Positions 1 to 10,599 of a stretch of DNA of 10,599 bases are shown here, piece by piece. The notes under the pieces were generated by a model. That model was not told where the DNA came from. It saw nothing but the letters and a program-made list of their open reading frames with translations, and did not search any database. The translations under genes and the position numbers were made by a program. Position 1 is the first letter of the stretch. Each line of letters starts with the position of its first letter. The DNA is taken from NCBI GenBank assembly GCA_946481205.1, contig CAMLNB010000120.1:1-10599 (forward strand), in the 5' to 3' direction. This DNA comes from an uncultured Kangiella sp. (GTDB lineage Bacteria > Pseudomonadota > Gammaproteobacteria > Enterobacterales > DSM-103792).

Positions 1-458
1 CGCCGCACTTCCTGCGTGGCTTTGCTGTTGCCGACCAGGCTGCGGAACAATTCGACCGGCCGATCGCCGACCCGGATCGCATGCTGGTTGTTGCGGCAAA
101 CTTGGCATTGATGCAGCAAATCAAGCAGCTGGGCATAGCGGAGCGGCATGTCCATGGTGCCGACCACATGCGGTTGCAACACCGGCTCCAGCTGGGCCAT
201 GGCGATCCCGCCGCTCAGCAGCAATACCGGCGCCTGCCGATCATGTTGATGCAGCGCTTGCAAGACCGTCTTGTTGTCGCCACCGCTGAGCGAACCGAGC
301 ACCACACCGAGATAGCGTCGATTTTCCGTCAGCAATTCGCGGTAGTTTTGGCTGTCGGCCAGCGAGCAGGCTTCACCGAGAAACTCCAGGATGATGCCCA
401 ATCGCTGTCGGCGTTCTGCATCATCGTCCAGCACCAACAACTGCATTTCCCGCCACAC
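1..458 (-). CDS. fleQ: Flagellar master regulator FleQ, N-terminal part (cut by the window edge)
   Basis: The first 152 residues of a FleQ-type sigma-54 activator are present; the AAA+ and helix-turn-helix domains lie beyond the left edge. The start is taken as GTG at 458-456 because the product then begins MWREMQLLVLDDD, matching the MWRE-LLLIDD start of Pseudomonas FleQ; an internal ATG at 446 would lose this. A weak GGAG lies 10 nt upstream of the GTG. Residues 1-125 form the receiver-like FleQ domain. The acidic cluster (DDD, 11-13) is kept, but the usual phospho-acceptor position reads VVLGS (about 52-56) with no Asp, as in Pseudomonas FleQ, so phosphorylation control is unlikely. The linker carries ELFRSLVG at 136-143; LFRS (137-140) is the motif at the c-di-GMP site of FleQ. 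FleQ activates sigma-54 flagellar promoters such as those found here before fliD and the glycosyltransferase. The gene is divergent from the flagellins, whereas Pseudomonas places it downstream of fliS. Confidence 0.92.
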   Translation of the reverse strand, partial: MWREMQLLVLDDDAERRQRLGIILEFLGEACSLADSQNYRELLTENRRYLGVVLGSLSGGDNKTVLQALHQHDRQAPVLLLSGGIAMAQLEPVLQPHVVGTMDMPLRYAQLLDLLHQCQVCRNNQHAIRVGDRPVELFRSLVGNSKATQEVR

Positions 459-506
459 GATGTGAAATCTCCAGAAAAACAGCGACAGTTCAATAGCTTG
501 GGATAA

Positions 507-535
507 GGGATAGAAGACGCATCGAGTATTGTCAA
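507..535 (-). promoter_or_regulatory. Possible sigma-70 promoter of fleQ
   Basis: On the minus strand a perfect TTGACA (535-530) is followed after 17 bases by TATCCC (512-507), which matches only the first half of TATAAT. Transcription would start near 500 and give a leader of about 40 nt to the GTG at 458. Pseudomonas fleQ is likewise sigma-70 driven. The poor -10 box keeps this tentative. Confidence 0.35.
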
Positions 536-544
536 ATTCTTGGC
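531..544 (-). promoter_or_regulatory. Candidate FleQ box overlapping the fleQ -35
   Basis: Read on the minus strand this is GCCAAGAATTTGAC. Compared with the FleQ box described in Pseudomonas (GTCaNTAAAtTGAC) it has three mismatches and keeps the TTGAC half. It covers the putative -35 of fleQ, so occupancy would fit autorepression. This is inference from a short degenerate motif. Confidence 0.3.
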
Positions 545-712
545 AGAATTTTTTTGCTGGCGGCGGCAAGTCTGCGGAACGGAGGATCGAGTTGGTACGG
601 AAGTATTCCACCTTGCAGCACAAGCAAGGCTCATGTGAGTAAAGCGATTGTCGCCTGCGGCTGATGCCAACAAGCGGATTCTGATTGATGACATGGCTGG
701 CGAAAAAACCGC

Positions 713-749
713 CAAAAAAGAAAGGGGCTTAAGTCACCCTAAGCCCCTT
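713..749 (-). terminator. Intrinsic terminator reading toward fleQ
   Basis: A perfect 10-bp stem (722-731 with 740-749, arm AAGGGGCTTA) closes an 8-nt loop. On the minus strand it is followed by TCTTTTTTGG (721-712), the layout of a rho-independent terminator. On the plus strand the stem is followed by ACCGTACG, so it would not work that way. No recognisable gene lies to its right on the minus strand. It may shield fleQ from antisense transcription or end an unannotated minus-strand RNA. Confidence 0.6.
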
Positions 750-752
750 ACC

Positions 753-845
753 GTACGACTGAAGCCGTGATCCCTGAAGTGTTCTCAGCACCGCAAGGTA
801 CGTCTTCGTGAAGCCTGATCACCATCGGATGTTCTCAGCACCCGG
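753..845 (+). repeat. Tandem direct repeat carrying two TTCTCAG stem-loops
   Basis: Two imperfect copies start at 753 and 798. Each runs GTACG, then TGAAGCC (760-766 and 809-815), TGATC, and ends TGTTCTCAGCACC (780-792) or ATGTTCTCAGCACC (829-842). In copy 1, GTG (779-781) pairs with CAC (789-791) around loop TTCTCAG (782-788), with CCT/AGG pairing further out. In copy 2, CGGATG (826-831) pairs with CACCCG (839-844), one A-C mismatch, around loop TTCTCAG (832-838). The loops match those of both flagellin leaders, but these copies lie about 500 bp upstream of the first flagellin promoter. Confidence 0.6.
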
Positions 846-1118
846 CAGCTACGGCCTCGCTTTTCTCCGGAGATGTCACCGATCCGCAAATGGAGACCTA
901 TCAGGGACTTGGCATTCGTGTCACGGGACGCCCAATGTTCAGCAATCAGCGTGCCAACTGCGCTACAAGCGCTAGCCAATACACCGCGACCTGCGTTTTC
1001 TCTCGGGAAATTAGGCCTTTTTCCGGTTACTGCAGGATCCATTCCCTGTGCAAGTGGTCGCCAGTGCGCGCAAATTGGCGTATCGACGCGGCACAGCCGA
1101 ACGCCATGCCCCGTCGCC

Positions 1119-1140
1119 TGGCGGCAAGCTTTTGCCGCCA
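1119..1140. repeat. Perfect 9-bp hairpin
   Basis: TGGCGGCAA (1119-1127) pairs with TTGCCGCCA (1132-1140) around loop GCTT. There is no T-tract on either side, so I do not call it a terminator. Its role is unknown. Confidence 0.45.
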
Positions 1141-1337
1141 CCGGCAAGCCATCGCAGCGCAACTTGCCGCAGCGCCAAGCCTTATTAAATGGACGCCCGA
1201 CCTGCATCGTCGGCCGGCACAGTCCGTAGCGGCGCGAATCCGTTGCTGCCTGACAGGCGCGGCCATCGCCCGCGCAGTTCTCCACGACGGTCGCTCACCG
1301 TCAGCCACGTTTGATTTTTCCTGCCGAAAAATTTTTC

Positions 1338-1364
1338 TCAAGTTTGGCAAAACGCGGTCGATAC
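1338..1364 (+). promoter_or_regulatory. Sigma-28 (FliA) promoter of flagellin 1
   Basis: TCAAGTTT (1338-1345), an 11-base spacer and GTCGATAC (1357-1364) closely match the FliA consensus TAAAGTTT-N11-GCCGATAA. Directly upstream is an A5T5 run (1327-1336) that could act as an UP element. The start site would be near 1371, giving an unusually long leader of about 260 nt before the flagellin ATG at 1631. Confidence 0.85.
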
Positions 1365-1372
1365 CTTGGCTG

Positions 1373-1400
1373 AGCGAGTTGTGTCTCAGCATGACGCGCT
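1373..1400 (+). promoter_or_regulatory. Leader stem-loop 1 of flagellin 1 (loop TCTCAG)
   Basis: AGCGAGTTGTG (1373-1383) pairs with CATGACGCGCT (1390-1400), ten pairs with one A-G mismatch, around loop TCTCAG (1384-1389). It lies at the predicted 5' end of the mRNA. The adjacent CTGAG (1370-1374) is complementary to the CTCAG of these loops and offers an alternative fold. Confidence 0.55.
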
Positions 1401-1403
1401 TCA

Positions 1404-1434
1404 CGTGGCAGGAATGTTCTCAGTGTTCCCCACG
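1404..1434 (+). promoter_or_regulatory. Leader stem-loop 2 of flagellin 1 (loop TTCTCAG)
   Basis: The inner stem GGAATG (1411-1416) pairs with TGTTCC (1424-1429), including two G-U pairs, around loop TTCTCAG (1417-1423). The outer stem CGTGG (1404-1408) pairs with CCACG (1430-1434), leaving CA (1409-1410) as a bulge. This is 11 pairs in total. Confidence 0.65.
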
Positions 1435-1437
1435 GCA

Positions 1438-1465
1438 GGCAGGGGTGTTCTCAGCTCCACCAGCC
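1438..1465 (+). promoter_or_regulatory. Leader stem-loop 3 of flagellin 1 (loop TTCTCAG)
   Basis: Loop TTCTCAG (1448-1454) is closed by G1447-C1455. The stem continues with mismatches and a bulged A1459 through GGGG (1442-1445) against CC-CC (1457-1461), then GGC (1438-1440) against GCC (1463-1465). It is the least regular of the exact-loop copies. A weak AGGA/TCCT stem and T6 (1491-1496) follow, which might attenuate transcription. Confidence 0.5.
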
Positions 1466-1500
1466 GACTAACACGAAAGGATGTTCCTGCTTTTTTGCGT

Positions 1501-1533
1501 CCGCAATTTGCTGCTCTCAATCAGCAGGTGCGG
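1501..1533 (+). promoter_or_regulatory. Leader stem-loop 4 of flagellin 1 (variant loop CTCTCAAT)
   Basis: CCGCA (1501-1505) pairs with TGCGG (1529-1533) and TGCTG (1509-1513) pairs with CAGCA (1522-1526), separated by an ATT/GG internal loop. The 8-nt loop CTCTCAAT contains the TCTCA core. A further hairpin without the motif lies at 1582-1608 (GCGTC/GACGC). Confidence 0.5.
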
Positions 1534-1630
1534 TCGCGAAGTCCCAGCACGAACTCCTTTCCGACACCGGCAACTTTGTAAGCGTCTTGAAGCCAGCAGG
1601 CCTGACGCGTCGAAGAGTGAGGAGTAAGAA

Positions 1631-3163
1631 ATGGGAAGCGTGATCGCCACCAACATTGCGTCCATCAACGCCCAGCGTAATTTGTATGGGACGTCGAACG
1701 GACTCAACGTAACCTTCCAGCGATTGTCGTCCGGCTTTCGTATCAACACCGCCAAAGACGATGCCGCGGGACTGCAAATCTCCAACAAACTGGGCTCGCA
1801 AATCGGCGGCCTGACCGTTGCCGCGCGCAACGCCAACGACGGCATTTCACTGTCGCAAGTGGCGGAAGGTGCGGTCGGTGAGGCCACCACGTTGTTGCAA
1901 CGGATGCGGGATCTGGCCGTGCAATCGGCCAACGGCAGCAACGGCCCGTCTGAACGCGCCGCACTGCAACAGGAGGTTGCGCAGCTGAAATCAGAACTGA
2001 ACCGGATCGCCGAAACCACCCGCTTTGGCAGCGCTGTGCTGCTGAACGGTTCATTCGGTTCGCGCTCGTTCCAGGTCGGCGCCAACGCCTTCGAAACGAT
2101 CAGCGTGACAATGGGCAACGTCCGCGCCGACGCCACTGGTTCGTACCGTGTTGACACCAGTGCCGGCGTGAACTTGCTTGATGCGTCGGCGACATTGACA
2201 GATAACGCTGCCAACGCGGTCAACGCTGTTGCCGGGGACACCATTACGCTGTCGGGCTTCCTGGGCACGCAGGACATCACCTACCCTGCTGGTGCCACCG
2301 CGCGCGACATTTCCAACGCGGTGAACTTTGTCTCCAGTGAAACCGGCATCAATTCCAGTGCCCGCTCAGTCGCGCAACTTTCGACACTGGCGCTACCGGG
2401 CACGCTGTCATTCCAGCTGTACGGCTCCAACACCGACACGACCAATCCGATCATCATTTCGGCAACCGTGACGGATGTGGACGATCTGACGTCCATCGCC
2501 GATGCCGTCAACCGTGTCAACGCCGAAACCGGCATCTCTGCCGAGATCGTGGTGGACCCGGCAACTGGCGACAAAAACGTGCATCTGATCAGCGAAACCG
2601 GCACCGATATCAAAGTCGTTGATTTCAACAACAGCGCTGGCGCCAACGGCACCATTGCGCTGACACCGCAAGATTTCAACGGCGAAGCACTGGCCGGTTC
2701 GACTGCAGCGACATTGGTCCCGGGCTCGGCAACCGACTCCGCCGTTGTCGCTGGCATGGTGCGCTTTGACTCCAGCCGTTCGTACACGGTGACGTCGCTG
2801 GCTGCCGATATTTTCGCCGCCATCGGCACCCAAAGCGCGGGCTTGGAGAACGTCGCCAACTTGAGTGTGGCAACCGCCATCGGCGCTCAGGAATCCATCA
2901 TCATCATCGATAAAGCGATCGAAGCGATCGACTCGGTGCGCGGTGATTTGGGTGCCGTGCAAAACCGGTTCATCAGCACGATCTCGAACTTGAACAGCGT
3001 CAACGAGAACGTTGCTGCGTCGCGTTCGCGCATCCGGGACACCGACTTCGCCCAAGAAACGGCGAACCTGTCGAAGTTCCAGGTGTTGCAACAAGCCGGC
3101 CTGTCAGTACTGGCGCAAGCCAATGCCCAGGGCCAGTCCGTCCTTCAATTACTGCAAGGATGA
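1631..3163 (+). CDS. fliC: Flagellin 1 (filament subunit)
   Basis: This is a 510-residue flagellin, exported through the flagellar channel and polymerised into the filament. Residues 1-165 are the conserved D0/D1 half ([17 protein letters not shown] start, [16 protein letters not shown] at 32-47, RMRDLAVQS at 91-99, the region bound by TLR5). Residues about 411-510 are the C-terminal D1/D0 half, with [11 protein letters not shown] and an end of SVLQLLQG. The middle is variable and contains two flagellin-IN-like segments (about 222-247 and 285-335). I see no cysteine, as usual for flagellins. The start ATG has GGAG at 1621-1624. The N-terminal domain is very close to flagellin 2 downstream, so the two are tandem paralogues with diverged centres. 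Expression should be late, from the sigma-28 promoter at 1338-1364, through a hairpin-rich leader. Confidence 0.97.
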
Positions 3164-3168
3164 AAACC

Positions 3169-3345
3169 ATGACCGCCAAAACGGTCGCCGGCAATCCTGG
3201 CGCTTACCGGCGACAAACCAGCATGACCCCGACTGCAGCAGGTTCCAGGACCGCTCAGTCAGCACCGCCCGCATCAGCAGTACAGGTAGCAATACCTGCA
3301 GTACCCCAAGCCCTTACCGACGACGACTCCGCAGGACAGGGCTGA
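3169..3345 (+). CDS. Possible small hypothetical protein after flagellin 1
   Basis: A 58-codon frame starts at ATG 3169, with AAGGA (3155-3159) inside the last flagellin codons. An alternative ATG at 3160 overlaps the flagellin stop as ATGA, which would allow translational coupling (61 residues). The product is rich in Ala, Thr, Pro and Ser with an acidic end (ALTDDDSAGQG). It has no membrane segment or motif I recognise and looks disordered. Its stop codon (3343-3345) lies inside the TTCTCAG hairpin at 3340-3369. It may be non-coding; only its placement and ribosome-binding site argue for it. Confidence 0.35.
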   Translation: MTAKTVAGNPGAYRRQTSMTPTAAGSRTAQSAPPASAVQVAIPAVPQALTDDDSAGQG

Positions 3346-3369
3346 GGGTTTTCTCAGGACCGCTCAGCC
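3340..3369 (+). promoter_or_regulatory. TTCTCAG stem-loop downstream of flagellin 1
   Basis: GGCTGAG (3340-3346) pairs perfectly with CTCAGCC (3363-3369). Inside it, GGTT (3347-3350) pairs with GACC (3358-3361), leaving G3362 bulged, around loop TTCTCAG (3351-3357). This makes 11 pairs in the same design as the leader hairpins, here in the 3' region of the flagellin 1 message. Confidence 0.6.
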
Positions 3370-3370
3370 A

Positions 3371-3398
3371 CCTGAACCCCGCTCCGGCGGGGTTCAGG
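3371..3398 (+). terminator. 12-bp hairpin with UNCG-type tetraloop, probable 3' end of flagellin 1 mRNA
   Basis: CCTGAACCCCGC (3371-3382) pairs perfectly with GCGGGGTTCAGG (3387-3398) around TCCG, closed by C-G, an extra-stable UNCG tetraloop. No T-tract follows; the next bases are a CCGGCGCCGG palindrome (3399-3408). It could be a terminator of non-canonical type or, as for abundant flagellin messages, a barrier to 3' exonucleases. Confidence 0.5.
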
Positions 3399-3488
3399 CC
3401 GGCGCCGGAGCCCACAGCCAAGGGCTTGGTCAGCGGTTAGAGATGAAGGTACCAGTTGCGTCCCCAAGGCCAGCTTGATCGGCTCTGT

Positions 3489-3502
3489 GACAAAAAACTG
3501 AC
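3489..3502 (+). promoter_or_regulatory. Candidate FleQ box upstream of flagellin 2
   Basis: GACAAAAAACTGAC has three mismatches to the Pseudomonas FleQ box GTCaNTAAAtTGAC. It is followed by AGAATTTTTTTT (3503-3514). The same arrangement, ending in CAGAATTTTTTT, occurs at 531-555 next to fleQ, so the pair looks like one repeated regulatory element. It lies 113 bp upstream of the sigma-28 -35 box. Confidence 0.3.
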
Positions 3503-3614
3503 AGAATTTTTTTTCGGCGTTCGCAGTTTCGGTAAGTAACTGATTCACCGACCCCCTTCGGGTTCTGCCATTCACGCAAGGCAGACGCCCGCGTTCGTCA
3601 TTGCAAAATCCCTT

Positions 3615-3641
3615 TAAAGTTTCCCGAAACGGTCCCGATAA
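3615..3641 (+). promoter_or_regulatory. Sigma-28 (FliA) promoter of flagellin 2
   Basis: TAAAGTTT (3615-3622), an 11-base spacer and CCCGATAA (3634-3641) match the FliA consensus at all but one position. The start site would be near 3648, giving a leader of about 175 nt before the ATG at 3824. It is a better match than the flagellin 1 promoter, which suggests flagellin 2 may be the major filament protein. Confidence 0.92.
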
Positions 3642-3689
3642 CCTGTCCGGACCGGCCCTGCGTTCTCAGCGCGGGCCGGACTAGACAGG
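3642..3689 (+). promoter_or_regulatory. Leader stem-loop 1 of flagellin 2 (loop TTCTCAG)
   Basis: GCG (3660-3662) pairs with CGC (3670-3672) and CCGGCCC (3652-3658) pairs with GGGCCGG (3673-3679), leaving T3659 bulged, around loop TTCTCAG (3663-3669). At DNA level the pairing extends to CCTGTC (3642-3647) with GACAGG (3684-3689). The predicted transcript start falls near 3648, so in RNA only the inner stem would form, right at the 5' end. Confidence 0.7.
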
Positions 3690-3690
3690 T

Positions 3691-3711
3691 TGCGAAGTGC
3701 TCAGTAATGCA
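3691..3711 (+). promoter_or_regulatory. Leader stem-loop 2 of flagellin 2 (weak variant, loop TGCTCAG)
   Basis: TGCG (3691-3694) pairs with TGCA (3708-3711), with tandem A-A mismatches and a closing G-U, around loop TGCTCAG (3698-3704). GCTC (3699-3702) could instead pair with GAGC (3717-3720). It is listed because it fits the spacing of the array. Confidence 0.3.
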
Positions 3712-3736
3712 GTTCAGAGCTACGTGACCGGCGTCG

Positions 3737-3766
3737 GCGGGCAGCTTTCTCAGAGCACCTGCCAGC
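3737..3766 (+). promoter_or_regulatory. Leader stem-loop 3 of flagellin 2 (loop TTCTCAG)
   Basis: GCT (3744-3746) pairs with AGC (3754-3756) around loop TTCTCAG (3747-3753). After a three-base bulge (3757-3759), GGCA (3740-3743) pairs with TGCC (3760-3763), and GC (3737-3738) with GC (3765-3766). Confidence 0.6.
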
Positions 3767-3785
3767 GTCTCGTAACTTTGTAGGC

Positions 3786-3804
3786 CCCGCTTTCTCAGAG
3801 TGGG
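3786..3804 (+). promoter_or_regulatory. Leader stem-loop 4 of flagellin 2 (loop TTCTCAG)
   Basis: CCCGCT (3786-3791) pairs with AGTGGG (3799-3804), one G-U pair, around loop TTCTCAG (3792-3798). It ends six bases before the AAGGAG ribosome-binding site (3811-3816), so a factor bound here could block or help translation initiation. Confidence 0.65.
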
Positions 3805-3823
3805 ACATCGAAGGAGACCTATC

Positions 3824-5305
3824 ATGGGCAACGTCATTCAGACGAATGCGTCCTCGCTTAACGCTCAGCGTAATCTGCTGGGTACCAGTAATGCTCTTGG
3901 CACCGTGTTCCAGCGCCTGTCGTCCGGTTTCCGGATCAACAGCGCCAAGGACGATGCTGCCGGTCTGCAGATCAGCAACCGCCTGAGCTCGCAAATCGGT
4001 GGTCTGTCGGTCGCCGTGCGTAACACCAACGACGGTATCTCGCTGGCACAAACCGCGGAAGGTGCACTGCAGGAAAGCACCAACATTCTGCTGCGGATGC
4101 GTGACCTCGCGGTGCAATCGGCCAACGGCTCGAACGGCGGTAGCGAACGCGCCGCGCTGCAACAAGAAGTCAACCAGCTCAAACAAGAGCTGACCCGTAT
4201 CGCCGAAACCACTACCTTCGGCTCGCGCAAGATTCTGGACGGTACTTTCGGTTCGGAAGCCTTCCAAGTCGGCGCCAACGCCTTCGAAACCATCAATGTG
4301 ACCTTGGGTAACTACAAGGCCAACAACATGGGTTCGTACAGCTACGATCTGTGGAACGCCGCTGGCGCCGCTGCAGTGACTTCGCTGGGTGGTGTATTGG
4401 CTGCAACATCCGTCACCGCCAACGGTGTGACCGGTAACCTGACCATTGCCGGTCTGTCGACCGAAGTGATCGCGGTGTCCGGTTCGGCTTCGTCGGTGGC
4501 AACAGCCATCAATGCCCAAAGCGGTTCGACCGGTGTCTCGGCTGATGCCCGTACCGTGATCGGTTTGAGCTTCGACAACGACACCTACAACTTCTCCTTG
4601 GCTGCTCAAGGCGGCACCGCTGTCACGATTCAAGCAACCGTGTCCGGTGGCGATCTGACCTCGATGGCCGATGCCATCAACGCCGAGGCCGGCAGGACCG
4701 GTCTGACCGCAAAAGTCAGCGGTTCGGAAATCATCCTGACCAGCGAAGCCGGTGATGACATCACCATCGACAATCTGAACAGCATCACCAACACCAGCCA
4801 GATCACCGTGCAGGGTTATGACTACACCGGCGAAAACGCGCTGGCTGCGTCGACCGACATCCTGACCGAAGCGGCTGATGATGCGATGCGTGCGATCGGC
4901 ACCGTGGTCTTGAACAGCGCCAAGTCGTTCACCAGCACCGCCAGCGCCGCCACCATTGACGGCACCACGACGGTCAACAGCGGTACCTTGGATGACGTCA
5001 CTGATGTCGATATCTCGACCTCGATTGGCGCTCAGCAAGCACTGAAAATCCTCGATGACGCCGTGTCGTTTGTCGACAGCTCACGCGCCGCACTCGGTGC
5101 CGTGCAGAACCGTCTGCAAAGCACGATTGCCAACTTGGGCAGCGCTATCGAGAACCTGTCGGCATCGCGTTCACGTATCCGTGATACTGACTTTGCCGCG
5201 GAAACAGCCAACCTGACCAAAAACCAGGTGTTGCAGCAAGCGGGCCTGGCGATTCTGGCTCAGGCCAACGCTTCGCCGCAAAGCGTGCTGTCGCTGTTGC
5301 AGTAA
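3824..5305 (+). CDS. fliC: Flagellin 2 (filament subunit)
   Basis: This is a 493-residue flagellin. The open frame extends to an ATG at 3800, but the start is 3824: it gives the canonical [17 protein letters not shown] end and has AAGGAG seven bases upstream (3811-3816). Residues 1-165 are D0/D1 with RMRDLAVQS at 91-99; residues 395-493 are the C-terminal D1/D0 part ending SVLSLLQ. The centre has two flagellin-IN-like segments (about 223-245 and 277-310) and shares little beyond this pattern with flagellin 1. No cysteine is seen. The whole frame lies between its own sigma-28 promoter and a GNRA hairpin before flaG, so it can be expressed apart from flagellin 1. Confidence 0.97.
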
Positions 5306-5357
5306 CAGGCAGTGGTTAAGGAAGATTTGCGATGATTCGCTCCTTCCATCGGGCCCA

Positions 5358-5383
5358 CGGCGGCGGTCGCAAGACCGTCGCCG
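5358..5383 (+). promoter_or_regulatory. 11-bp GNRA-loop hairpin between flagellin 2 and flaG
   Basis: CGGCGGCGGTC (5358-5368) pairs with GACCGTCGCCG (5373-5383), one G-U pair, around GCAA. No T-tract follows. It ends ten bases before AGGAG (5394-5398) of flaG. It may partly terminate or stabilise the flagellin mRNA, so that flaG is made at a much lower level than flagellin. Confidence 0.5.
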
Positions 5384-5404
5384 CTGGCGTACCAGGAGAC
5401 GACC

Positions 5405-5860
5405 ATGTCAACTGATCTCAGCAGTTTGACTGGCGGTCCTCGTTTGCCCGTCAACAACACCGCTGCACCTGCTGCCGGCAATAATGTCGTGAGCTTGCGG
5501 CCTGCCACGCGGCAAAGCATTGCCGCACCCGCAAGCGAGCCCGTAGACAAAGCCACGCAAGTGGCAGCACCGGAAGAAAGCCAGACCAGTCGTATTGAGC
5601 AGCAAAAACAGCAGGATGCCGAAGCCCTGCGCGCCAAGGTTGAAGAGCTCAACCAGAACGCCCAGAGCATCCGCCGCAGCCTGCGTTTCGATGTCGATGA
5701 CGACACGGGGATTACGGTGATTACGGTTCGCGATCGGGAAACGGATGAAGTTATCCGGCAGATCCCGTCGGAAGAATTGCTGGAGCTGGCCCGCTATTTT
5801 GCCGAAGCCAGTGAGAGTCAGGGCGAAAGCAAAGGCTTGTTGTTGCGCGCCGAGGTATGA
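5405..5860 (+). CDS. flaG: FlaG family flagellar protein
   Basis: This 151-residue protein has a disordered Ala/Pro/Thr-rich first part (1-60), a Gln/Glu-rich helical stretch (63-88) and the FlaG domain at about 89-135. The domain shows the family pattern SLRFDVDDDTG, then TVRDRETDEVIRQIPSEELLELA. FlaG sits beside flagellin genes in many polar systems and affects filament length in Pseudomonas and Campylobacter; its biochemical action is not settled. The start ATG has AGGAG at 5394-5398. No promoter is seen in the 99-bp gap before it, so it is probably read through from the flagellin 2 promoter past the GNRA hairpin. Confidence 0.9.
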   Translation: MSTDLSSLTGGPRLPVNNTAAPAAGNNVVSLRPATRQSIAAPASEPVDKATQVAAPEESQTSRIEQQKQQDAEALRAKVEELNQNAQSIRRSLRFDVDDDTGITVITVRDRETDEVIRQIPSEELLELARYFAEASESQGESKGLLLRAEV

Positions 5861-5875
5861 CCGTCAGCTAACGGT
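5860..5875. repeat. 16-bp near-perfect inverted repeat before the fliD promoter
   Basis: ACCGT (5860-5864) and ACGGT (5871-5875) flank CAGCTA, giving a palindrome with one mismatched pair. It begins at the last base of the flaG stop and lies about 25 bp upstream of the sigma-54 -24 element. It could be an activator site or a short hairpin ending flaG. It resembles a FleQ box only in GTCA. Confidence 0.35.
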
Positions 5876-5898
5876 TTCAATGCCAGTTGCATTGGCAG

Positions 5899-5915
5899 CT
5901 GGCACGGGGGTTGCT
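5899..5915 (+). promoter_or_regulatory. Sigma-54 promoter of fliD-fliS-fliT
   Basis: CTGGCACG, four bases, then TTGCT matches the sigma-54 consensus YTGGCACG-N4-TTGCW exactly; GG (5901-5902) and GC (5913-5914) are 12 bp apart. The start site would be near 5926, about 30 nt before the fliD ATG. In Pseudomonas fliD-fliS is likewise activated by FleQ with RpoN, so this is the expected control. Confidence 0.93.
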
Positions 5916-5955
5916 CACCCTCAGTAAAGTCGCGCTGGCCAACGAGGTAATACAT

Positions 5956-7308
5956 ATGGGATTGATATCTGCAGCGGGCTCCGGCTCCGGTCTCGATGTC
6001 GAGTCCATCATCTCCGCCCTGGTCAATGCTGAACGGGCACCGGTCGAACAACGGCTGAATCGCCAGGAAGCGCTGACCCAGACCACGCTGACCGGCATCG
6101 GTCTGCTTTCATCGGCTTTGGGCTCGCTGAAAACCGCGCTCGAGAAACTCGACTCCGCCTCCGATTTCAAACTGCGTTCGACCAGTCTGTCGCAGACCGG
6201 CTTTGTTTCGGTCAGCCCTGGAGCGGCCGCCAGCAGCACCGACTTTTCAGTCGAAGTAGTCAAGCTTGCCACCGGCAGCAAACTGGAGTCTGGTGTTATC
6301 GCCGGCGGGTCCAGTGCGGTATTCGGTGCCGGCACATTAAGCTTTGCTGCAGATGGCAAAAGCTTCTCTGTCGCCGTCGAAGCCACAGACACGCTGACCC
6401 AGATCCGCAACAAGATCAATAATGCCGCCGGAAACATCGGCGTCACCGCCACCATCATCTCGACGGATGCCGGAACCAAGCTGGTTTACAACTCGAAGAT
6501 CACTGGCACCGGCAATGGCCTGACCGTCACCAACAACAATACTGCGCTTGACGCGATTTCTACCAACATGGTCTCGACCCAGGCTGCTGAAGATGGCCAG
6601 ATCAAGATCAATGGCAGCTTGGTAACTAATAGCAGCAATGTCTACACCTCAGCCGTTGCTGACGTCACCATCACCGCACTGAAGGTCAACCCGGTCGGTG
6701 AAACCACCGAAGTCACCATCTCGGAAGACCGCTCGGCCGTCAAGAAAGCGGTTGAAGATTTTGTCAAAGCCTATAACACGGCCTTTGAAGAAATTCGCAA
6801 GCTGACCAACAACGCCGACGGCGCCGAAGGTCCGCTGGCTGCCGACAGTTCAGCACGCAGCATCACCTCACGCCTGCGCAACTTGCTGACCAGCTCGGTC
6901 GGTAGTGTTGATGACACTTACGGCAGCTTGGCAGCCATTGGCATCACGACGTCGCGTACTGGCACATTGAGTCTTGATGCTACAAAACTCGATACCGCGC
7001 TGACGGAAGGCTTGGATGATGTTGTCTCACTGTTTACGGCAGAAGATGGCATCGCCGCCCGTGCCAAATCTTATATCGATTCACAAGTAGGTTCCGCGGG
7101 CGCATTGGCGAGCCGTACGACGACGTTGAACAAGGAGCTGGAGCGCATCTCCGGCCAGCGTGAATCGCTGGCGCTGCGTCTGGAAAAAGTCGAAACCCGA
7201 CTACGCGCGCAATATGGCGCCCTGGATGCCTTGGTCGCTCAGTTCAATGGCACCTCGCAATTTATCAGTCAAAACCTTGCTGCCTTGAATACCGGCAACA
7301 GGAAATAA
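5956..7308 (+). CDS. fliD: Flagellar filament capping protein FliD (HAP2)
   Basis: This 450-residue protein forms the cap at the filament tip and folds incoming flagellin. The open frame extends upstream to 5887, but ATG 5956 gives the typical start MGLISAAGSGSGLDVESII, has GAGG at 5944-5947, and lies downstream of the sigma-54 start site; upstream starts would not be on that message. The FliD N-terminal domain covers about 9-107, a flagellin-IN-type segment follows at about 145-190, and the FliD C-terminal domain with a long coiled coil (about 384-435, LNKELERISGQRESLALRLEKV in part) closes the protein. Length is normal for polar-type FliD. It heads a likely operon with fliS 32 bp downstream. 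Confidence 0.95.
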   Translation: MGLISAAGSGSGLDVESIISALVNAERAPVEQRLNRQEALTQTTLTGIGLLSSALGSLKTALEKLDSASDFKLRSTSLSQTGFVSVSPGAAASSTDFSVEVVKLATGSKLESGVIAGGSSAVFGAGTLSFAADGKSFSVAVEATDTLTQIRNKINNAAGNIGVTATIISTDAGTKLVYNSKITGTGNGLTVTNNNTALDAISTNMVSTQAAEDGQIKINGSLVTNSSNVYTSAVADVTITALKVNPVGETTEVTISEDRSAVKKAVEDFVKAYNTAFEEIRKLTNNADGAEGPLAADSSARSITSRLRNLLTSSVGSVDDTYGSLAAIGITTSRTGTLSLDATKLDTALTEGLDDVVSLFTAEDGIAARAKSYIDSQVGSAGALASRTTTLNKELERISGQRESLALRLEKVETRLRAQYGALDALVAQFNGTSQFISQNLAALNTGNRK

Positions 7309-7340
7309 ACTCTCTTCCCGCTGTACTGGAGAATCGTTAC

Positions 7341-7772
7341 ATGTCCATGCAATACGCCAAGCAGTACGCCAAAATCAGTGCCGCCTCGGAAACCGAATCG
7401 GCCGATCCGCACCGCTTGATCCAGATGCTGATCGATGGCGCGTTGGCCAAGCTGATTGTTGCCAAGGCCATGATGGAACGCCGCGACGCTGCCAAAAAAG
7501 GCGAAAATGTCAGCTGGGCCATTTCCATTATCGGTGGCCTGCAAGCCAGTCTGGATATGCAAAAAGGTGGCGAAATCGCCCAGACGCTCAACGCCCTATA
7601 CGAGTACATGACCGTGCGCCTGGCTCAGGCTAATGCCAGCAATGATGTGTCCGGCCTTGACGAAGTGATTCATTTGATGAAAACCATCAAGGAAGGCTGG
7701 GATGGCATTCGGCCGCAAGCAACTGAAATGTTCAACGGTTCAGCCAACACGACCGATCGCGCGTCCGCATGA
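7341..7772 (+). CDS. fliS: Flagellin export chaperone FliS
   Basis: This 143-residue cytoplasmic helical protein binds the C-terminal end of flagellin, prevents early polymerisation and guides it to the export gate. Family features are the start YAKQYAKIS, the SADPHRLIQMLIDGAL helix, MERRDAAKKGENVSWAISII and KGGEIAQTLNALYEYMTVRL (about 75-94). GGAG lies upstream of the ATG at 7341. The final ATGA is shared with the next gene, so translation of the two is probably coupled. Two flagellins are available as clients. Confidence 0.95.
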   Translation: MSMQYAKQYAKISAASETESADPHRLIQMLIDGALAKLIVAKAMMERRDAAKKGENVSWAISIIGGLQASLDMQKGGEIAQTLNALYEYMTVRLAQANASNDVSGLDEVIHLMKTIKEGWDGIRPQATEMFNGSANTTDRASA

Positions 7773-8083
7773 GCCCTGCCCTGATCCACATTCTGGATCT
7801 GAGCAAGCAGCTGCAAGCGCTTGCTCAGGAACAGGACTGGACACACATGCTGCAGGTGGCGCGGACACGCCAGCAGCAATTGGAAAGCTATTTTCGGTTA
7901 GACCCGTTACCTGATGCCGCGGATATCGTGCAAACCGCGCTGCAGGACGTACAGCAGACCGATCATGCGTTATCGCTGTTGGCGAGTCAGCACCGACAGC
8001 ATCTGTTGCAGGATGCAGTGGACCTTCGCCAGCGCTGGCAAAGTTCAAATGCTTATCAAGGCGTGCAGAATCTGGATGTGTAG
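7769..8083 (+). CDS. fliT: FliT-like flagellar chaperone
   Basis: This is a 104-residue, Gln/Leu-rich, apparently all-helical protein whose ATG overlaps the fliS stop by ATGA. Sequence signals are weak, as is usual for FliT; the call rests on size, helical heptad-like pattern (LDLSKQLQALAQEQDWTHML near the start) and position directly after fliS, where fliT is found in many genomes. FliT-type proteins bind the C-terminal region of FliD and deliver it for export. In Pseudomonas this slot is held by fleP, a different small protein, which remains an alternative. It is the last gene of the sigma-54-driven unit; no clear terminator follows. Confidence 0.65.
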   Translation: MSPALIHILDLSKQLQALAQEQDWTHMLQVARTRQQQLESYFRLDPLPDAADIVQTALQDVQQTDHALSLLASQHRQHLLQDAVDLRQRWQSSNAYQGVQNLDV

Positions 8084-8417
8084 GCGTTTCTGATACGTCA
8101 TTTCATGCATGCCGGCATCGCCAATGCAGCCTCGCAAGGCCTGCTGTGCCAGCTCGATTAAACGACTCACCTTCATACGACCCCAAGGGCGCCAACTTCT
8201 GGCCCTTCCAGCCTTTATCGCTGACAAGATCCGCGGCAGTGCGGCAAACTCGCACGCGGCAACTCGTTGCCGGCTCTTGCCTCCCGCTATTCACCCGCGA
8301 ACGCTGACACGCTACAACTGTCATGCGCCGCACACCCCATCAAGCAAGCACCACTTGACCCAACCGACAGAACTGACCAAGCTGATGATGTGATCGGTGC
8401 CATCATCAGGAGCGCTC
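8084..8417. other. Gap without a recognisable gene between fliT and the GNAT gene
   Basis: I find no convincing gene, sigma-54 or sigma-28 promoter, or terminator with a T-tract in this 334-bp stretch. Small structures are a 10-bp palindrome ATGCCGGCAT (8109-8118) and a hairpin GGCAA-CTCG-TTGCC near 8260. Two short minus-strand frames cover part of it but give no recognisable protein. It has no TTCTCAG element. Confidence 0.5.
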
Positions 8418-8915
8418 GTGGCCGTGACCTTATCTGCCGCTGGTGAACTGTCCATTCGGCTCGCAACGACCGCCGATCTGCCGTTCATAGTTGCGGGCGC
8501 ACAGCAACTGGCCGAGCAAGAGCTGCAGCAAGGCGTCAGCTTGCCGCTGCAGGCCGATTTCAACGTGCGAATCGAACGCTATTTTGCCGAACTCATTGCA
8601 GCACCAACGGCACTGGTGCTGATCGCCGAACGCAATGGCCGCTTGCTCGGCTATATCGCCGGCAGCCTGCAGGCCATGCCCAACGATTTCACCACCGCAA
8701 CGCTGTACGGCCACATTCAAGTGTTATGGATCGAGCAGGAGGCGCGCCGGCTGCATTTGGGCAAAACCCTGGTCGATTTGTTCGAAGCCACCCTGCGCGA
8801 TCAAGGCGTTCACCACATCGACACTCAGCACGCCCATAGCAATCTGCCGGCGGTGCTGTTCTGGCAAAACTGCGGCTATGCGCCGGTCAGTACCACGCTG
8901 CGGAAGAAACTCTAA
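8418..8915 (+). CDS. GNAT family N-acetyltransferase
   Basis: This 165-residue protein is read from GTG 8418, chosen because AGGAG (8408-8412) lies five bases before it; a GTG at 8397 would add seven residues but has no ribosome-binding site. It shows the GNAT fold order: SIRLATTADLPFI (12-24), the beta hairpin ALVLIAERNGRLLGYIAGS (65-83), the acetyl-CoA loop RRLHLGK (110-116, R-x-x-L-G-K) followed by a helix, and the closing LPAVLFWQNCGYAP (143-156). Such enzymes move acetyl from acetyl-CoA to an amine on a sugar, small molecule or protein. The substrate cannot be read from sequence. Its place between fliT and a sigma-54-driven glycosyltransferase suggests flagellin or flagellin-sugar acetylation. 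No promoter of its own is clear. Confidence 0.85.
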   Translation: MAVTLSAAGELSIRLATTADLPFIVAGAQQLAEQELQQGVSLPLQADFNVRIERYFAELIAAPTALVLIAERNGRLLGYIAGSLQAMPNDFTTATLYGHIQVLWIEQEARRLHLGKTLVDLFEATLRDQGVHHIDTQHAHSNLPAVLFWQNCGYAPVSTTLRKKL

Positions 8916-8951
8916 ATCGCATCGCAATGCCATGGCCGCGCGGAAGTGCCG

Positions 8952-8966
8952 TGGCACCCTTCTTGC
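8952..8966 (+). promoter_or_regulatory. Sigma-54 promoter of the TPR glycosyltransferase gene
   Basis: TGGCACC, four bases, then TTGC matches the sigma-54 consensus TGGCACG-N4-TTGC at all but one position, with GG (8953-8954) and GC (8965-8966) 12 bp apart. The start site would be near 8978, leaving a leader of about 94 nt with a 9-bp hairpin. It places the glycosyltransferase in the same sigma-54 class as fliD. Confidence 0.8.
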
Positions 8967-9010
8967 CTACGCTCTTGGTAACGCCAATCGTGTGCGTCCT
9001 GTTGCCGTAC

Positions 9011-9033
9011 CTGCCGTGTCTAGCACACGGCAG
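9011..9033 (+). promoter_or_regulatory. 9-bp hairpin in the leader of the glycosyltransferase gene
   Basis: CTGCCGTGT (9011-9019) pairs perfectly with ACACGGCAG (9025-9033) around CTAGC. It lies about 40 bases before the start codon and has no T-tract. It might affect translation; nothing in it resembles the TTCTCAG elements. Confidence 0.45.
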
Positions 9034-9071
9034 CCAGGCCGTGACCCGCCCGTTGCAATGAGACAAGACCC

Positions 9072-10599
9072 ATGCAACTCGCCTCGCTGAGCTATGAAGA
9101 TGCGCTGCAACACGCCCAGCACTTGCTGTTCACAGCCCAACATCTGAAAGCCGTGCAATTGTCGCGGCATCTGCTGCAACAGCGCCCGGGCGATCCGGTG
9201 CCCTATTACATTCTTGGTCTCGCATTGACTCAGCAGAACGAATACGCCGTGGCACGAGAAGCGCTGTCGCTGGCCTTGCGTCTGGCGCCACAACAAGCGG
9301 AACTGTGGCTGGCGCTCGGCAAAACCCATGACGGCGAACAAGACTATGCCCGCGCCCAGCAGGCCTACCAAAACGGCTTGCAGCATGCACCGCAGCATTT
9401 GCCATTGCTGTACGCTGCGGCGCGCAATCTGGAAGCCCAGCAACATGAGCACAATGCGCTGCCGCTGTACCGGCAGATGACAGAGCTGGCACCGGCTGAC
9501 ACGCTGGCTCGCGAAGGACTGTGGCGTTGTCTGCGCAATCTTCAACTGCGTGACGAACTGCTGCAACCGGAAAAAGCGGCACAAGCCGAAACCCCGATTC
9601 TGCGCATCATCCGGGCCAAGACATTGATCGAACTGGGCACTGATGCCTCGCTCAGTGAAGCCGAGAACCTGCTGCAGCACACACTGGTGAGCGAACCCGA
9701 TCGGGCCGACGCATTGGCGGCGCTGAGTTTGCTCTACCGCGTGCGCGGCGCGTTTGATCGCTGCTTGCCGATTGCCCGGCGTTTGGTCGAGATTCAGCCC
9801 GATCGCACTGAAGGCTATCTCGGTTGCATCGAGTCCTTGATTGCCGCGGATCGCGACGAGGAAGCCTGGGCCATCGGCAAACAAGCCGCTGCCCGCTCCG
9901 GCTCGCACGCAATGTCCCTGCATGCAGCGGCGTTCATCGCCCAGATCCCGCTATCCACCGACCATATCCAACGGCAACGCCAACGCGCTCGTGATGGCAT
10001 TCAGAAGTTGCTGGCCACCGGGGTAAAAAGCAACAACCCGCTCCGTGAAGCGCCACTGACTTATTTCTACTTTGCTTATCACGGCAACAACAACAAGCAA
10101 CTGCTGAGCTACATCGCTGACAGTCTGCGCAAGCTGGCGCCACCATTGAGCTATGAAGCGAAGCATGTTCGGCAGCCACGAACAGACGGACCACTACGCA
10201 TCGCTTTTGTCTCAACGTTCATGCGCGATCATCCGGTTGGTCGTTGCTATCAACCTCTGTTGGCGGCGCTTGCCGAGCAAGCCGATATGGCGGTGCGTGT
10301 TTACACCCGACTCAAAGAGGGCGACCCCATCCAGCAAACCATGCGCGACCAGCAGATTGCGGTCGAAGCACTGCCAATGGCACTGGCCGAAGCGCGCGCC
10401 ACCATTGAAAGCTTCCAACCGGATGTGCTGCTGTACGGCGACATCGGCATGGACAACTTCACCTACTATTTGGCGTTCTCTCGACTGGCTGCGTTGCAAT
10501 GCCTGTTGCCCGGTCATCCGGAAACCAGCGGCATCGACACCATAGACTACCTGATCACCCAGAAGGATTTGGAAGGCCCGAAGCCGGAATCGCGCTACC
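9072..10599 (+). CDS. TPR-containing OGT/SPINDLY-type (GT41) glycosyltransferase, 3' end cut by the window
   Basis: The first 509 residues are present and the frame is open to the edge. Residues about 43-155 form TPR helices (VPYYILGLALTQQNEY, AELWLALGKTHDGEQDYARA), with more helical repeats at about 185-290. The GT41 catalytic region starts near 374 with PLRIAFVSTFMRDHPVGR; His387 aligns with the conserved His of human OGT (HP motif). A second block, LLPGHPETSGIDTIDYLIT (479-497), corresponds to the WLGYPGTSG---DY block of the family, with GHPE in place of GYPG. Such enzymes move GlcNAc or related sugars from a UDP donor to Ser/Thr of a protein. The start ATG has only a weak GAG nine bases upstream; GTG 9042 is an alternative. 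The sigma-54 promoter and the flagellar neighbours make flagellin the likely acceptor, which is inference. Confidence 0.88.
   Translation, partial: MQLASLSYEDALQHAQHLLFTAQHLKAVQLSRHLLQQRPGDPVPYYILGLALTQQNEYAVAREALSLALRLAPQQAELWLALGKTHDGEQDYARAQQAYQNGLQHAPQHLPLLYAAARNLEAQQHEHNALPLYRQMTELAPADTLAREGLWRCLRNLQLRDELLQPEKAAQAETPILRIIRAKTLIELGTDASLSEAENLLQHTLVSEPDRADALAALSLLYRVRGAFDRCLPIARRLVEIQPDRTEGYLGCIESLIAADRDEEAWAIGKQAAARSGSHAMSLHAAAFIAQIPLSTDHIQRQRQRARDGIQKLLATGVKSNNPLREAPLTYFYFAYHGNNNKQLLSYIADSLRKLAPPLSYEAKHVRQPRTDGPLRIAFVSTFMRDHPVGRCYQPLLAALAEQADMAVRVYTRLKEGDPIQQTMRDQQIAVEALPMALAEARATIESFQPDVLLYGDIGMDNFTYYLAFSRLAALQCLLPGHPETSGIDTIDYLITQKDLEGPKPESRY

Follow-up and report, generated by a model that had tools for sequence, protein, structure and literature searches.

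We analysed a stretch of 10,599 nt from an uncultured Kangiella sp. (contig CAMLNB010000120.1, positions 1 to 10,599; hereafter the window), which carries two flagellin genes on its plus strand and, upstream of them, the N-terminal part of fleQ on its minus strand (2..446; PF06490, 2e-25). Flagellin 1 lies at 1631..3163, and its protein is 94% identical to that of Permianibacter sp. IMCC34836 (genome G429) and 56% identical to that of P. aggregans (G385). Flagellin 2, which is probably the major flagellin, lies at 3824..5305; its ATG at 3824 was chosen by likeness to relatives, and the mechanical list of open reading frames begins at 3800. Each gene is preceded on the plus strand by a sigma-28-like site found by pattern match (1338..1363 and 3615..3640). 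We were concerned with the hairpins in the leaders of these two genes and with a predicted small RNA (sRNA) gene between flagellin 1 and fleQ, whose product may dock on them.

The heptamer TTCTCAG occurs eight times in the window, at 782, 832, 1417, 1448, 3351, 3663, 3747 and 3792, and only on the plus strand. In 200 dinucleotide shuffles the mean was 1.06 copies over both strands and the maximum was five; none of the shuffles reached eight. Six copies belong to the leaders of the two flagellin genes or follow flagellin 1. Those at 782 and 832 are 800-850 nt ahead of flagellin 1 and are the complement of CUGAGAA loops in a predicted minus-strand RNA; hence they are not leader elements. The first-pass annotation had noted the excess and the strand bias correctly, but it counted these two among the plus-strand members.

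It had also read four consecutive hairpins in the leader of flagellin 1. Hairpins 2 (1408..1432) and 3 (1439..1463) carry TTCTCAG in their loops, at 1417-1423 and 1448-1454, and are supported by motif count, alignment and covariation. Hairpin 1 (1372..1400), supported by its sequence, comparison with G429 and folding, does show TCTCAG at 1384-1389, but its full loop is GTCTCAG (1383-1389), one mismatch from the heptamer. This loop is unchanged in G429. The fourth loop, CTCTCAAT in hairpin 4 (1496..1540), is not kept in G429, where by reading another stem is possible and its loop lacks the motif. We did not count it as a kissing site. The leader of flagellin 2 contains three heptamer hairpins, at 3654..3678, 3738..3762 and 3783..3807 (heptamers 3663-3669, 3747-3753 and 3792-3798), again supported by motif count, alignment and covariation. 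All these hairpins are on the plus strand. The sigma-28-like site of flagellin 1 predicts a transcript start near 1370, ahead of the hairpin array on which the earlier leader reading depended, although this is a pattern match and not a mapped start.

On the minus strand, a terminator, two hairpins with CUGAGAA loops and a sigma-54-type site lie together, and we therefore predict an RNA running from about 930 to 714. The sigma-54-type site, TGGCACGCTGATTGC, was found at 942..956 by pattern scan. The predicted sRNA of ~217 nt (714..930) would start 12 nt after the -12 element and end at the T-tract. Its intrinsic terminator (714..749, stem 749-722 followed by the T-tract) came from a terminator scan, and relatives have a terminator at the same place. 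Such sites are common by chance: the 4 kb scanned had 4, when 5.1 were expected. When the minus strand was folded from 870 to 710, two hairpins formed (z -2.5; 4 of 200 shuffles were as good), each with a 7-nt loop that reads exactly CUGAGAA and so complements the leader loop. These are hairpin 1 (824..846, loop 832-838) and hairpin 2 (776..794, loop 782-788), and both also have support from covariation. Further 5′ on the same strand, the segment 892..903 is the exact complement of 3813-3824, which on the plus strand comprises the ribosome-binding site (RBS) of flagellin 2 and the first letter of its start codon. The start region of flagellin 1 has no such match (6 nt exact, chance level). The earlier suggestion that the leader loops might be read by a small RNA with CUGAGAA fits the RNA now predicted in the same window; the contact antisense to the flagellin 2 RBS had been missed.

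We then compared the leaders across genomes. The relatives included G429, G385, Pleionea sediminis (G682) and Aliikangiella coralliicola (G672). Fifty-two flagellin leaders held 128 TTCTCAG sites; removing one repeat left 51 leaders with 125 sites, and removing identical, N-bearing or edge-cut 25-mers left 116 sites. In the 51 distinct 320-nt upstream regions, from 23 genomes, TTCTCAG thus occurs 125 times and its complement not once, when about one would be expected by uniform chance. A single leader has at most five copies. Over the 128 sites, the flanks formed a mean of 4.70 of six possible pairs (2.29 at other positions of these leaders), and at least five of six pairs formed at 77 of the 128 sites, compared with 3.7% elsewhere. 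Among all heptamers flanked by at least five of six pairs, TTCTCAG ranked first with 76 occurrences and the runner-up had 11; the 21 one-letter variants of TTCTCAG had 7 in total.

The 116 distinct leader 25-mers align without gaps, and conservation is confined to the heptamer. In their stems, 77.9% of cells pair, against 42.7% after shuffling and 40-48% for slid partners. The covariation score was 0.860, compared with 0.234 in shuffles. Two of the five measures (double-change pairs and pair types) were saturated and did not differ from shuffles. The claim that selection has acted on RNA structure here is supported by this covariation, which is seen in the homologous leaders and also in the sRNAs.

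Across the genome of G429, TTCTCAG copies spaced 20-50 nt apart were found at three places, the sRNA gene and the leaders of flagellins 1 and 2, and the reversed control gave none. In G429, G385 and G409, every tandem pair is at flagellins or the sRNA. A scan of 21 of the 22 relative genomes with the sRNA (G764 was omitted) gave 92 matches, of which, by hand count, 73 fell at a flagellin or sRNA locus and 19 in other places; the control pattern gave 38 in total. Tandem GCTGAGAAC was found in none of the five genomes in which it was searched. A search for relatives by FliD returned 14 loci, none of them close. In these 14 and in 30 class-wide flagellin loci, TTCTCAG was scattered with at most three uninterrupted flanking pairs, and the array was not found.

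Another conserved box, CTTTGTA, is present in 33 of the 52 leaders and in all 23 genomes, 47-118 nt before the start (1574-1580 and 3776-3782 in the window). In the G672 family, 16 of the 18 first flagellins that were scored lack it, as does the first flagellin of G385. Its exact complement was found in none of the 23 sRNAs, two N-containing sRNAs being outside the scan as noted below. Loci L076, L077 and L085 have three to four flagellin genes each, with one to three docking loops within 320 nt and differing RBS matches.

The anatomy of the predicted sRNA was also read in nine relative loci. In the core alignment of these ten sRNAs, GCUGAGAAC is invariant and present twice, while the stems vary. 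Paired cells made up 92.9% of the stems (70.4% after shuffling), both sides had changed in 11 of 14 pairs, and the covariation score was 0.681 compared with 0.230; none of 500 shuffles reached either the pairing or the covariation, although these ten sRNAs had been selected for their loops and also supplied the structure. A covariance model of the sRNA matched 22 relative genomes, comprising 3 of 3 in the G429 family and 19 of 40 in the G672 family. A flagellin (E 1e-15) was detected in 19 of the latter 40, exactly the 19 with the sRNA; the 21 genomes with neither measure 1.4-2.9 Mb. In an order-wide sample the model matched 23 of 394 genomes. Nineteen matches were strong, all in the G429 and G672 families, and four were weak (22-26 bits). 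A wide spread of the sRNA in Gammaproteobacteria was not supported, the class sample giving one weak match (27.5 bits) in 369 genomes; both samples were scanned with stricter filters, which lose weak matches.

Both core loops are exactly CTGAGAA in 22 of 22 model-found loci and in the window. Counted by exact match, 18 of the 23 sRNAs have two copies and five have three (51 in total); a variant extra loop would be missed in this count, and the independent figure is the 22 of 22 for core loops at the model position. Each of the 23 sRNAs, one from the window and 22 from relatives, is preceded by a sigma-54-like site, which ends in strict TTGC in 20. This site was a condition of the extraction script, although no sRNA failed it, and the sRNA ends were also set by the script. 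In the fetched loci, which partly overlap, a site of this kind turns up once per 6756 nt when both strands are counted. The sRNAs are 217-263 nt long and, by reading, have a terminator hairpin with a T-run. A protein-coding role is disfavoured because the alignment shows variable lengths and gaps. A fleQ-like start follows on the sRNA strand in the window and in 12 of the 22 genomes, with identity from 86% down to 23%. G672 is one of these 12, although its scored flagellins are on a different contig from the sRNA. In G643, what is presumably a pgi-like gene takes the place of fleQ.

Between hairpin 2 and the terminator of the window sRNA, outside the modelled stems, there is a CGTACGG element (751-757, minus strand) with a palindromic CGUACG inside. 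It is invariant in the ten aligned sRNAs and altered in the distant G585, G652, G625, G691 and G543. A dimer or chaperone site is possible. A second sigma-54 site, TGGCACGGGGGTTGC, was seen ahead of fliD (5900-5914, plus strand).

The second contact was also followed across genomes. The 5′ region of the sRNAs holds CCCAUGAUAGGUCUCC or a variant, the complement of the flagellin RBS and start. In 23 of 23 genomes, some flagellin start has an exact run of 9-25 nt complementary to the sRNA; the largest runs in 200 shuffles of these sites were 8-13 nt. The variants differ from lineage to lineage and fit their own, with GGAGACCUAUCAUGGG in Permianibacter and AGGAGAUUUAUCAUGGGUAAUG in others. In three whole genomes of the Permianibacter family, the 12-mer GGAGACCTATCA occurs nine times, three in the sRNA gene and six at flagellin starts, with none elsewhere and none for the control. 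In G643, whose RBS is rearranged, the run is 25 nt with its own sRNA and at most 10 nt with the other 22. The sum of exact runs with own partners was 386, compared with a permuted mean of 296 and maximum of 361 (23 genomes, 20000 permutations). The sum of duplex energies was -738.5, compared with a permuted mean of -653.3 and a best of -720.4 (21 genomes, 20000 permutations). The permutation of sRNAs leaves relatedness in place. Two sRNAs containing N (G764 and G765) were omitted from the energies, from the folding and from the scan for the CTTTGTA complement. More than one flagellin was scored in 22 genomes, and in these the exact run of the first is only 5-8 nt, which is chance level. Later flagellins are sometimes weak too, for example the third of G753 (5 nt) and one on a separate contig of G634 (10 nt).

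Taken together, we propose, with a probability of about 0.8, that the flagellin leader hairpins are docking loops for a dedicated trans-acting, sigma-54-dependent antisense RNA that would block flagellin translation by loop-loop kissing and RBS pairing. The sRNA is read as a dedicated antisense repressor because its loops mirror the leader loops and its 5′ end mirrors the RBS, in antiparallel order. Comparison of sequences shows the RNA anatomy, both complementarities with their conservation, and a joint change of the RBS contact between lineages; from this we infer expression of the sRNA, use of its promoter, repression and purpose. The sigma-54 promoter would drive the RNA of ~217 nt. Its two CUGAGAA loops (three in five relatives) would kiss the UUCUCAG loops of the leaders through 7 base pairs, and its 5′ segment would pair with the Shine-Dalgarno sequence and start region of flagellin 2. 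Both contacts could form together, since the order 5′-anti-RBS-loops-3′ runs antiparallel to loops-RBS in the mRNA. Ribosome entry would be blocked, and the flagellin mRNA would perhaps be cut by RNase III. The mRNA of flagellin 1 may be a weaker target or a decoy, as it has docking loops and lacks the RBS match. As a sigma-54-dependent antisense to a sigma-28 message, the sRNA would restrain flagellin synthesis early on, or cap it later, during the time when the sigma-54 genes for basal body and hook are active. In Campylobacter, according to the part of the report consulted, rod and hook genes are under sigma-54 and the major flagellin is under sigma-28 (PMC11187230). We assume by analogy that polar flagellates of the present lineage have the same split.

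Behind flagellin 1 there is one more heptamer hairpin (3335..3375, plus strand, heptamer 3351-3357; motif count, comparison and folding). It is kept in G429, and a strong inverted repeat follows shortly after. It may give the sRNA access to the 3′ end of the flagellin 1 message.

Several observations weigh against our proposal. One of the 52 leaders has no heptamer, 16 of the 128 sites have at most three of six flanking pairs, and in some leader folds the heptamer partly pairs with itself (U-A, U-G), leaving a CUC loop. In the window, the 273-nt leader of flagellin 1 has a minimum-energy fold with a z of -3.58 that contains hairpins 1 and 4 and lacks hairpins 2 and 3; forcing hairpin 2 costs 11.4 kcal/mol. 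Thus, the support for hairpins 2 and 3 is comparison, not single-sequence folding. The full-length fold of the window sRNA leaves its anti-RBS segment only 0.21 and loop 2 only 0.30 unpaired; in the folded sRNAs otherwise (n=21), the anti-RBS segment is 0.39-0.66 unpaired and the unpaired value is 0.85 or higher for 43 of 47 loops. The window pair is also among the weaker ones, with 12 nt exact and one base missing opposite the start codon. The runs in G672 (13 nt), G691 (9 nt) and G543 (9 nt) do not exceed the largest of 200 shuffles. In 18 of the 23 genomes, the sRNA of another genome gives a longer anti-RBS run; the own run is strictly longest in two, tied in three and above the mean of the others in 18. 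The own sRNA has the best duplex energy in only 2 of 21 genomes, and in four Pleionea-like ones (G682, G585, G652 and G625) it is worse than the mean of the others. As the own sRNA is often not the best fit, the joint change of the anti-RBS segment and its target is one between lineages, above all in G643, and not among close genomes. Finally, the loop pair of sRNA and leader never varies, so the loops give conservation and not co-change.

In one alternative, the flagellin 1 mRNA would act as a sponge for the sRNA; flagellin 2 would be freed only while flagellin 1 is made, which would set the order of the flagellins. The chance-level runs of first flagellins, whose leaders nevertheless keep the UUCUCAG hairpins, fit this idea. 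However, it accounts for flagellin 1 alone, the leaders of flagellin 2 have loops too, and direct action on the stability of flagellin 1 mRNA is equally possible. We regard the sponge as a tentative and rather unlikely explanation. A broader scheme, likewise speculative and doubtful, is a multivalent RNA zipper. An sRNA with two to three identical kissing loops and leaders with up to five identical receptor loops would share a fixed 7-nt code. The flagellins would be ranked both by how many docking loops they have and by whether the RBS duplex can form, and the flagellin 1 mRNA would serve as a buffer. The sRNA may here derive from an inverted copy of a flagellin leader, because the order of its elements is that of the leader reverse complement; its stems would have drifted while the loops and RBS remained locked.

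Activation would suit a leader that is long and strongly folded: kissing might reshape the leader, or shield the mRNA, so that more flagellin is made. Against it, the loops and the anti-RBS segment are within one RNA in matching order, and a duplex over the Shine-Dalgarno sequence and start codon is the usual geometry of a repressor, which makes activation improbable. Alternatively, the reader of the UUCUCAG loops could be a protein, and the complement in the sRNA would then be incidental. A fixed loop on variable stems suits a protein site equally well, and the invariance of the loop pair is in line with this. Yet the core sRNA loops are the exact complement wherever the model found them and in the window, and this sRNA carries, in addition, an antisense match to the RBS of that class of mRNA, so that we consider a protein reader very improbable. 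Hairpins can be read on either strand, but the idea that those at 782 and 832 belong to a plus-strand transcript and that the elements are functionless dispersed repeats is highly improbable, given the terminator and sigma-54 site that indicate the minus strand (and the corresponding strand in relatives), the strand bias of 125 to 0 in leaders and the confinement of tandem pairs to flagellins or the sRNA in G429, G385 and G409.

The proposed antisense repressor was also compared with described systems. In Rfam, five matches in the window (BjrC68, istR, RsmY, mir-486 and group-II) were all below the gathering score, in line with the earlier remark that no described element of this kind was known; that of BjrC68 lies over the 3′ end of the sRNA (715-776, minus strand; 24.9 bits vs 39). 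Six flagellin loci, five with the sRNA (L076, L077, L078, L080 and L082) and one without (L084), gave no match at gathering score. An E-value scan of six sRNA loci gave one match, V_AS5 (L108, 2064-2187, plus strand; 46.9 vs 96 bits), outside the sRNA. It lies ahead of the pgi-like gene beside the G643 sRNA. A CsrA site was rejected, as it had been earlier, since the conserved loop UUCUCAG lacks GGA. No description of this element was found among the literature matches listed, judged by titles and the beginnings of abstracts.

In keeping with a trans-acting sRNA, the predicted RNA has its own promoter-like site, an intrinsic terminator and no conserved protein, and its complementarity to the target is conserved (loops) or compensated between, not within, lineages (RBS). 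Kissing-loop antisense RNAs include CopA/CopT, RNAI/RNAII and OxyS-fhlA, the last with two contact sites, one of them at the RBS. To our knowledge, none of these has repeated arrays of one fixed heptamer. The nearest likeness is to RNAIII of S. aureus acting on coa, where, in the part of the report consulted, an imperfect duplex masks the Shine-Dalgarno sequence and a loop-loop contact lies further on (PMC2837412); RNase III cuts both coa and rot in that system, as far as the consulted parts go (PMC2837412, PMC3861533). The likeness is in the RBS-masking duplex and the loop-loop contact, and no sequence kinship was seen. RNAIII has several targets, whereas the present sRNA would have one target class, up to five identical docking loops per leader and a sigma-54 site, in another phylum.

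Flagellar sRNAs are known elsewhere. From the part of the report consulted, FlmE (CJnc230) and FlmR (CJnc170) of C. jejuni alter flagellar output, and FlmE is RpoN-dependent (PMC11187230). FlmE differs in that it is processed from the flgE mRNA and represses flgM and Cj1387c, flagellin being affected through FlgM; no kissing array was seen in the same part of that description (PMC11187230). The predicted sRNA is intergenic with its own promoter-like site, and in G672 it lies on a different contig from the scored flagellins, features that would speak against its being processed from a flagellar mRNA. In E. coli, the sigma-28-dependent FliX, MotR and UhpU base-pair with flagellin mRNA and change the flagellin level, but they are derived from untranslated regions, pair inside the fliC coding region, have further targets and depend on sigma-28, not sigma-54, according to the consulted part of the report (PMC10578931).

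If the proposed repression is correct, kissing-loop recognition would be legible from genomes alone, through a fixed heptamer with 125 receptor sites, complementary effector loops, covarying stems and a lineage-matched RBS duplex. This would make the rules of multivalent recognition between RNAs testable. The polar flagellates of the Permianibacter and Aliikangiella-Pleionea lineages would have a dedicated flagellin switch that acts after transcription and is coupled to sigma-54; in the classic account, control is transcriptional.
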